Shown piece by piece: positions 30,391-35,762 of a DNA stretch of 41,228 nt. The notes under the pieces were generated by a model. The model was not told where the DNA came from and did no database searches. It saw only the letters and a program-made list of their open reading frames with translations. The position numbers were made by a program, and so were the translations under genes. Location of the stretch: positions 1 to 41,228 of the forward strand of contig JANXXE010000101.1 in the NCBI GenBank assembly GCA_025350815.1, written 5' to 3'. Origin of the DNA: Myxococcales bacterium. GTDB taxonomy: Bacteria; Myxococcota_A; Polyangia; Fen-1088. Each line of letters starts with the position of its first letter. Position 1 is the first letter of the stretch.

Positions 30391-30453
30391 GCGACTACGG
30401 CGACTACGGCGACTACGGCGACTACGGCGACTACGGCGACTACGGCGACTACG
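30391..30453. repeat. 9-bp tandem repeat, 7 perfect copies
   Basis: Seven perfect head-to-tail copies of GCGACTACG, 63 bases. The last unit overlaps the stop codon (30449-30451) of the Cys-rich lipoprotein gene. The rest lies in the 117-base gap before the M23 gene. Being a multiple of 3, the repeat is open in several frames, but none looks like a gene. Perfect copies imply recent expansion. Confidence 0.95.
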
Positions 30454-31981
30454 GAACGATGGCGCCGCCCACGCACGCATAACCGAGCACGCCCCGAAAA
30501 GCGCAACGGAGGGTCCCATCACAGGTCCCAGTGGCCGCCGTCATACCGGCGTAGGCCGTACAGCAGGGCTCACCCAACTTGCCGCAGGACTCGCACTTGC
30601 TGGTCTGCGGTGAACAGGTCGTCGCCGAGGCCGAGCACCACCGAACATTCGTGCCGCTCACGCAGCAAGCCTGTCCGAGCCCGCCGCACCCGCCGCACGC
30701 GCCGCCCGCGCCACAGGACATCCCGTTGGGACATTGGCCACCCCCACCCAGGCACAGCGACGGTCCGTTCGCCTGGGGCACGCAGCACCCGCCAGCCGCA
30801 CAGCGGTTTCCATCACAACAGTTGCCGCCGGCCGTGCCGCATCTTTCGCAGCGTTCCACCCCCCGGGCGTCCTGCAAACACTGCGTGTCTGGCTCGTTGC
30901 AGGTCGAGCGCGGCGGGCAGCAGGACTGGCCCTGGCGGCCACATGCGCACTGCCCGTCCGCACACAAGCCGTAGGAGACACCGAACGATGTGCAGGCGTT
31001 TCCAGGTCCGACGCAACGGCCCGCAAGACAGCAGCCGGAACCTGCACACTGGCCACCGGCACAACACGCGCCCCCCGCAGCGCCGCACGCGTCGCAGCGA
31101 CCTGAGGCCGTGCACACGGCGCCCGGCGAACACGGGACCGCAGCGGCGCAGCACACGTCGTTCACCGCGCCGCAGGGCACGCACAGGCCGGACGGGTCGC
31201 AGCGTGTGCCCGGGCCGTAGCAAGTGGCGCCGCAGCAGGCCTGGCCCTTGCCCCCGCAGGCCGAGCAGCGTCCCGCCGCGCACATGCCACCGGCTGCCGT
31301 CACGCCGCACGAGGATCCGGAAGGGACACAGGATCCACCGTAGCAACAGGCGCCGCCCGCGCAGGCGTTGCCGCCCGGACAGCAGGGCGTCCCAGGAACG
31401 CCGCAGGTCGCGCAAACACCGTCCGCGGGCCGGGTACAATAAAGACCGGTCGCCAGACAACTGTTGCCCGCGCAGCAGGCAGCATCGGCGGCCTGGCCGC
31501 AAACGGTGCACAGGTTGCCAACGCATCGGGTGCCGGAGGCCGTGCAAGCCCCGCGGTCGCAGCATGGCTCCCCCACCGCACCGCAGCCCCCGCACGAGCC
31601 GCTTTTGCAAACGGCGTCGGTGTCGCCGCACTTGGCGGAATTCGCCACACACTGGCCAAGCACGCAGCAGCCGCCCGCCGCGCACGAATTGCCCGCGCAA
31701 CAGGCGAGACCCGTTGTTCCACAAGACGCGGCGTCGGGCTCAGGGCTGGCAGCATCCGCCGGCCCGTCGTTGTCCAAATTGGGGGCATCGGCGCGGGTCA
31801 CGGCCTCCTGCGTGAAGGCGTCTAGTACGACCTGCGGCACGTCCGCTTCGTGCAATCCGCCGTCGCCGGTCGCCGCGATCCCGGCGTCCCCCTTCGACGA
31901 CGCGCCTCCACCGCATGCCGGAACGGAGGCAACGAGCCCCACCAGAACGATGGCTTTGCACCAGGGTCTGTGGGTCGTCAA
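30449..31981 (-). CDS. Cysteine-rich modular lipoprotein
   Basis: A 510-residue lipoprotein: the signal peptide ends in lipobox SVPAC (acylation at C23). It is followed by ~60 residues of Asp/Ala/Gly-rich linker and then ~425 residues packed with 82 cysteines (84 in the whole precursor). The body consists of 11 repeats built on C-x2-CG-x2-G-x2-CC (some with small variations, the first lacking the leading C-x2), about 37 residues apart, each followed by further C-x3-4-C and CC pairs. Examples are CATCGVPGTPCC, CSACGGKGQACC and CESCGKLGEPCC. The Cys spacing suggests small disulfide-locked knots or metal binding outside the cell. I do not recognise a named family; similar Cys-rich repeat proteins occur in myxobacteria. 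There is no catalytic motif. Its stop lies in the 9-bp repeat array. Confidence 0.85.
   Translation of the reverse strand: MTTHRPWCKAIVLVGLVASVPACGGGASSKGDAGIAATGDGGLHEADVPQVVLDAFTQEAVTRADAPNLDNDGPADAASPEPDAASCGTTGLACCAGNSCAAGGCCVLGQCVANSAKCGDTDAVCKSGSCGGCGAVGEPCCDRGACTASGTRCVGNLCTVCGQAADAACCAGNSCLATGLYCTRPADGVCATCGVPGTPCCPGGNACAGGACCYGGSCVPSGSSCGVTAAGGMCAAGRCSACGGKGQACCGATCYGPGTRCDPSGLCVPCGAVNDVCCAAAVPCSPGAVCTASGRCDACGAAGGACCAGGQCAGSGCCLAGRCVGPGNACTSFGVSYGLCADGQCACGRQGQSCCPPRSTCNEPDTQCLQDARGVERCERCGTAGGNCCDGNRCAAGGCCVPQANGPSLCLGGGGQCPNGMSCGAGGACGGCGGLGQACCVSGTNVRWCSASATTCSPQTSKCESCGKLGEPCCTAYAGMTAATGTCDGTLRCAFRGVLGYACVGGAIVP

Positions 31982-34517: not shown

Positions 34518-35762
<1,245 letters not shown>

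Follow-up and report, generated by a model that had tools for sequence, protein, structure and literature searches.

The minus-strand open reading frame at 30449-31981 of the window, by which we mean the whole 41,228-nucleotide stretch of myxobacterial DNA analysed here, encodes a protein of 510 aa with 84 cysteines, of which the last 425 residues hold 82; these figures of the preliminary description are confirmed from the sequence. With a probability of about 0.5, we propose that this protein is an outer-membrane-anchored rod of disulfide-bonded modules that acts as a tough coat or adhesive stalk. It would be exported as a lipoprotein and probably held in the outer membrane through lipid on Cys23, and we infer that it is exposed at the cell surface with its cysteines oxidised. 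A flexible 63-residue linker would bear a rod of eleven small modules, each folded almost wholly via intramodular disulfides, three per 6-Cys module and five per 10-Cys module. Since nothing else is attached to the array, the rod itself would have to be the functional part. Its role may be that of a surface coat or stalk, resistant to proteases and denaturation, making multivalent contacts of low specificity either between cells or between cell and substrate.

The ORF has a TTG start codon with a Shine-Dalgarno-like stretch, GGGGAG, about 8 nt upstream; a promoter and terminator scan around the gene found nothing above shuffles. The features of the gene, read from the sequence unless stated otherwise, are as follows.

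31916..31981, minus strand: signal peptide, residues 1-22, with lipobox V-P-A/C at its end
31913..31915, minus strand: Cys23, predicted to be lipidated (lipobox pattern), then GGG
31724..31912, minus strand: disordered low-complexity linker, residues 24-86 (63 residues)
31586..31723, minus strand: module 1, 10-Cys type, also modelled
31502..31585, minus strand: module 2, 6-Cys type, single-module model with pLDDT 94
31406..31501, minus strand: module 3, 6-Cys type, also modelled
31259..31405, minus strand: module 4, 10-Cys type
31175..31258, minus strand: module 5, 6-Cys type
31088..31174, minus strand: module 6, 6-Cys type
30944..31087, minus strand: module 7, 10-Cys type
30842..30943, minus strand: module 8, 6-Cys type
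30689..30841, minus strand: module 9, 10-Cys type
30587..30688, minus strand: module 10, 6-Cys type
30452..30586, minus strand: module 11, 6-Cys type plus a short C-terminal tail; the stop codon follows at 30449-30451

The earlier reading as a lipoprotein with a disordered linker agrees with the V-P-A-C lipobox of the window protein, in which Pro at -2 is not the commonest lipobox residue, and with a plan common to most members of the family: lipobox, low-complexity linker (median 64 residues, range 7-221), modules, end. In nearly all members no extra domain follows the last module. The lipobox pattern test was passed by 59 of the 72 homologous arrays, a set that includes a few fragments, and several of the arrays that failed it are truncated. 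The window lipoprotein has no Asp at +2 after Cys23, which predicts an outer-membrane location under a sorting rule established in enterobacteria. At the other end of the gene, a 9-bp unit, GCGACTACG, recurs in 7.1 perfect tandem copies (30391-30454) that overlap the end of the coding sequence; on the gene strand each unit carries one in-frame TAG, so that a run of in-frame stops follows the ORF.

The count of eleven modules holds, with 10-6-6-10-6-6-10-6-10-6-6 cysteines from module 1 to 11 and a sum of 82. There are two classes. The seven 6-Cys modules have 28-34 residues (45 in module 11, tail included) and the pattern C-x6-CC-x4-C-x5/6-C-x4+-C, and the four 10-Cys modules have 46-51 residues and the pattern C-x6-CC-x4-C-x4-CC-x4-C-x6-C-x6-C-x4-C. 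Variation lies mainly in three loops. A fixed period of about 37 residues, as first described, does not exist; 37 is the average of the two module lengths. The string CxxCGxxGxxCC, given earlier as the mark of the modules, is exact at 7 sites, but only CG-x5/6-CC is invariant. The modules are rich in Gly, Cys, Ala, Ser and Thr, with few aromatic residues and almost no His; the small residues and scarce aromatics suit a structural role. Exactly the same module order was found again in an array from a different family (L079), where the per-module positional match with the window protein is clear only for modules 1-3.

None of the curated family libraries searched contains the repeat, and among the phylum genomes sampled it is confined to one myxobacterial class. 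The window protein had no match in Pfam, NCBIfam or PHROGs, nothing significant among PDB sequences and no match in a plasmid search, which bears out the earlier statement that it holds no known domain. With eight members, no NCBIfam model matched at E up to 10, and Pfam gave nothing for nine of ten other members and only a weak match to the PT disordered repeat for the tenth. A characterised Cys-rich family was sought and not found, and the literature searched held no paper on this repeat. Rubredoxin matches among the PDB sequences (E 0.09-0.13) were discarded as chance alignment of cysteines.

Three paralogs lie in the same genome, on contigs C8, C118 and C212. Among relatives, 14 of 59 carry homologs. 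So do 31 of 290 genomes from the class of this genome (about a tenth, at E <= 1e-8) and 12 of 284 in a phylum sample, where all 12 belong to that class. A Cys-array gene is carried by 8 of 10 genomes in one family. Other classes of the phylum gave none in 57 genomes, a weak negative from a set without a positive. Five close pairs have dN/dS of 0.10-0.24 and retain 100% of their Cys columns, and on these clean pairs the homologs are judged to be under purifying selection. The sixth pair, L083 and L087 (partial frames, 166 codons), has dN/dS of 0.81 with 34 of 38 Cys columns kept. In the genome search both of these frames were interrupted by a TGA, and they are possibly decaying copies or assembly errors. 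The preliminary description had taken absence of the ORF from close relatives as the mark of a composition artefact. At this locus the ORF is indeed missing from relatives whose flanking sequence was covered, but homologs elsewhere are under purifying selection, and the paralogs, the homologs across the class and this selection with its kept cysteines together argue that the ORF is not a product of chance or composition.

The case for disulfides comes from the number of cysteines and the way they are lost. The arrays were cut at the C-x6/7-CC signature into 665 segments, after removal of two wrong-frame ORF segments. Six cysteines were counted in 486 segments, ten in 154, another even number in 23 and an odd number in 2. 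The count is thus even in 663 of 665, as it was in 431 of 433 segments of an initial set. Among the 25 irregular segments only 2 have an odd count (at even odds, p is about 1e-5, with relatedness ignored). Read by eye, all 16 of the 8-Cys modules have lost C8 and C10 and kept C9, although these are mostly one orthologous position and may reflect a single loss event. Similarly, C2 was lost together with C5 (6-Cys type) or C6 (10-Cys type) in 4 of 4 modules, again by eye. For example, one module of L084 has no C2 and C6, and the next has none of C2, C6, C8 and C10; L015 and L148 each have a 6-Cys-type module from which C2 and C5 are missing, and this may be one orthologous module in both. Single losses in L016 and L015 are the exceptions. 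Because cysteines are lost in fixed partner pairs, C2-C5(6) and C8-C10 are likely bridges, and the even counts with the paired losses point to disulfides within modules. The full pairing that we propose is C1-C4, C2-C5, C3-C6 for the 6-Cys module, which is the cystine-knot (knottin) order, and C1-C4, C2-C6, C3-C7, C5-C9, C8-C10 for the 10-Cys module; C1-C4 and C3-C6(7) depend on the module being knottin-like, and C5-C9 is assigned by exclusion.

The same observations bear on the earlier suggestion of metal binding, in which reduced thiolates at the cell surface would bind or store metal. The very high Cys content would suit this role, as would a cation-efflux gene in the neighbourhood of the C8 paralog, found at that one locus only. 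Even counts and pairwise losses fit disulfides instead, the modules have almost no His, and the exported compartment is presumably oxidising, so that we give metal binding very little credence. A point against the disulfide reading, and one in favour of metal, is that no Pfam match for DsbB (PF02600) or VKOR (PF07884) was found in the genome itself (97.7% complete), which leaves the disulfide source unexplained. That genome nevertheless encodes many Cys-rich exported proteins. If the disulfide-bonded rod is right, it offers a test case for heavily disulfide-bonded exported proteins in a genome without recognisable DsbB or VKOR.

Three consecutive modules were modelled, as had been suggested. 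AlphaFold2 gave a pLDDT of 87.7 for modules 1-3 with 33 homologous triplets, and 94.3 for module 2 alone with 58 single modules. In the latter model a C-terminal beta-hairpin (model residues 22-29) bears C5 and C6. The Foldseek list against the PDB for the single module consisted mostly of ICK, cyclotide and knottin miniproteins, with a squash inhibitor and Dkk4. The best TM was 0.61 over 28 of 30 residues (mostly 0.5-0.6), not significant, with all E > 1. The three-module search gave a similar list, none of it significant. Non-significant E values are expected for 30 residues, and equally for a coincidental resemblance, and the ICK comparison was chosen after the list had been seen; the ICK-dominated list is suggestive and falls short of proof. 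Matches to viral models, namely giant-virus Cys-rich proteins, were set aside, as none had E <= 0.001 and TM was low.

In knottins, one disulfide threads a ring made by the other two (PMC2659701). The modelled module resembles them in its size of about 30 residues, its 6 cysteines and its C-terminal beta-hairpin with C5 and C6, and the pairing 1-4, 2-5, 3-6 as proposed, with co-loss behind 2-5, would be that of the ICK. In the usual knottin loop order any adjacent Cys-Cys stands at positions 3-4. Here all 6-Cys modules have C2 and C3 as neighbours instead, with 5-6 residues between C4 and C5, and to our knowledge usual knottins do not have the C2-C3 spacing. Because the usual loop order does not apply, the framework reads as different or permuted, and we call the module knottin-like and do not file it as a knottin. 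It has no significant sequence or fold match to knottins, and the knot is a candidate only. Knottins are also soluble proteins of one or two modules, whereas here a bacterium carries arrays anchored by lipid, each with roughly 4-22 modules. It is a tentative reading, which we hold at somewhat under even odds, that such long arrays (about 22 modules and 150 cysteines at most) consist of cystine-knot miniproteins whose Cys framework is unusual, and that knottins serve as rod-like surface material in one myxobacterial class, having arisen there independently of those of eukaryotes. If so, bacteria would hold natural long tandem knottin-like scaffolds, of interest for the engineering of stable proteins.

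Squash-type knottins block proteases, and the array might likewise be a surface protease inhibitor, with one protease blocked per module. One weak fold match, to the squash trypsin inhibitor 1mct_I, suits this idea, but its TM is 0.40-0.42 and it spans no more than 20 columns. Loop 1 is the conserved CGxxGxxCC where a variable reactive loop would be expected, neither a protease target nor any neighbour is conserved, and an inhibitor array is in our view very unlikely.

Among known systems, the secreted cysteine-rich repeat proteins (SCREPs), for which bacteria are among the reported taxa (PMC6262176), share the secretion and the tandem domains, predicted here to be disulfide-rich. SCREP is an architecture class and not a homology family, and the repeat described here has no Pfam or NCBIfam match. 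Also comparable are the TraA repeat TIGR04201 and DUF4215 (PF13948), which are likewise myxobacterial, extracellular, Cys-rich and in tandem. The Cys-rich repeats of TraA, which occur with PA14 and MYXO-CTERM, have been proposed to form a rigid surface stalk (PMC3325183). Unlike TraA, the window protein has neither PA14 nor MYXO-CTERM and has its lipid anchor at the N-terminus, and its modules hold 6 or 10 cysteines against three invariant ones per TIGR04201 repeat. TIGR04201 did not match any of eight members (NCBIfam, E up to 10), nor did DUF4215 match the window protein or ten other members in Pfam, although the same model detects DUF4215 elsewhere in the genome. One such case, at G000:C136:33908-37234, is a frame of 1304 residues that contains at least 14 repeats of DUF4215, a different myxobacterial Cys-repeat family. 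The weakly conserved surfaces rich in Gly, Ala, Ser and Thr, the lipid anchor and the predicted cross-linking fit a coat or stalk, by analogy with the proposal for TraA (PMC3325183). The earlier suggestion of a disulfide-rich surface adhesin, spacer or shield is plausible, and if it is right, a widespread unclassified extracellular domain is added to the myxobacterial surface.

The alternative with more to recommend it is a specific multivalent binder, in which the module loops form recognition surfaces for kin, a prey surface or a polysaccharide. Animal double-knot peptides, which bind symmetric targets, provide a parallel. Module order is conserved between families, and loops 3-5 differ in length and sequence, but loop residues are mostly G, A, S, T, D or N with no conserved binding motif, and close pairs are under purifying and not diversifying selection. 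Against it, too, nothing recurs beside the array genes across the 20 loci examined except generic regulators of the two-component and sigma-54 kinds. PA14 + DUF4215 proteins are encoded near Cys-array genes at two loci of the same GTDB family (L062:5890-8139 and L058:2111-4012), one of them 95 bp from the array gene on the same strand. This would suit a binder and recalls the TraA domain plan, and we treat it as a lead only. Overall, we regard the specific binder as possible but doubtful.

The preliminary description noted the neighbouring M23 endopeptidase gene, and a functional link with it is not supported. The two genes lie on the same strand, 117 bp apart, and could form a cell-wall remodelling unit. 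However, 16 of 17 family genomes have M23, mostly next to pssA/plsC, and where the flanking sequence was covered no Cys-array gene adjoins it in these relatives. On a single contig of G002, about 0.68 Mb separates the two genes, and the paralog and homolog loci adjoin unrelated genes for regulators, transport and housekeeping. A partnership with M23 is hardly credible in this light. Because M23 is conserved in relatives without a Cys-array gene beside it, we consider the adjacency, judged on gene order, to be incidental. Elsewhere in the window, a 9-bp repeat, CACCATTGG, lies at 34583-34615 inside the coding sequence for the RecA C-terminal tail, where it gives a Gly/Ala/Asn-rich extension.
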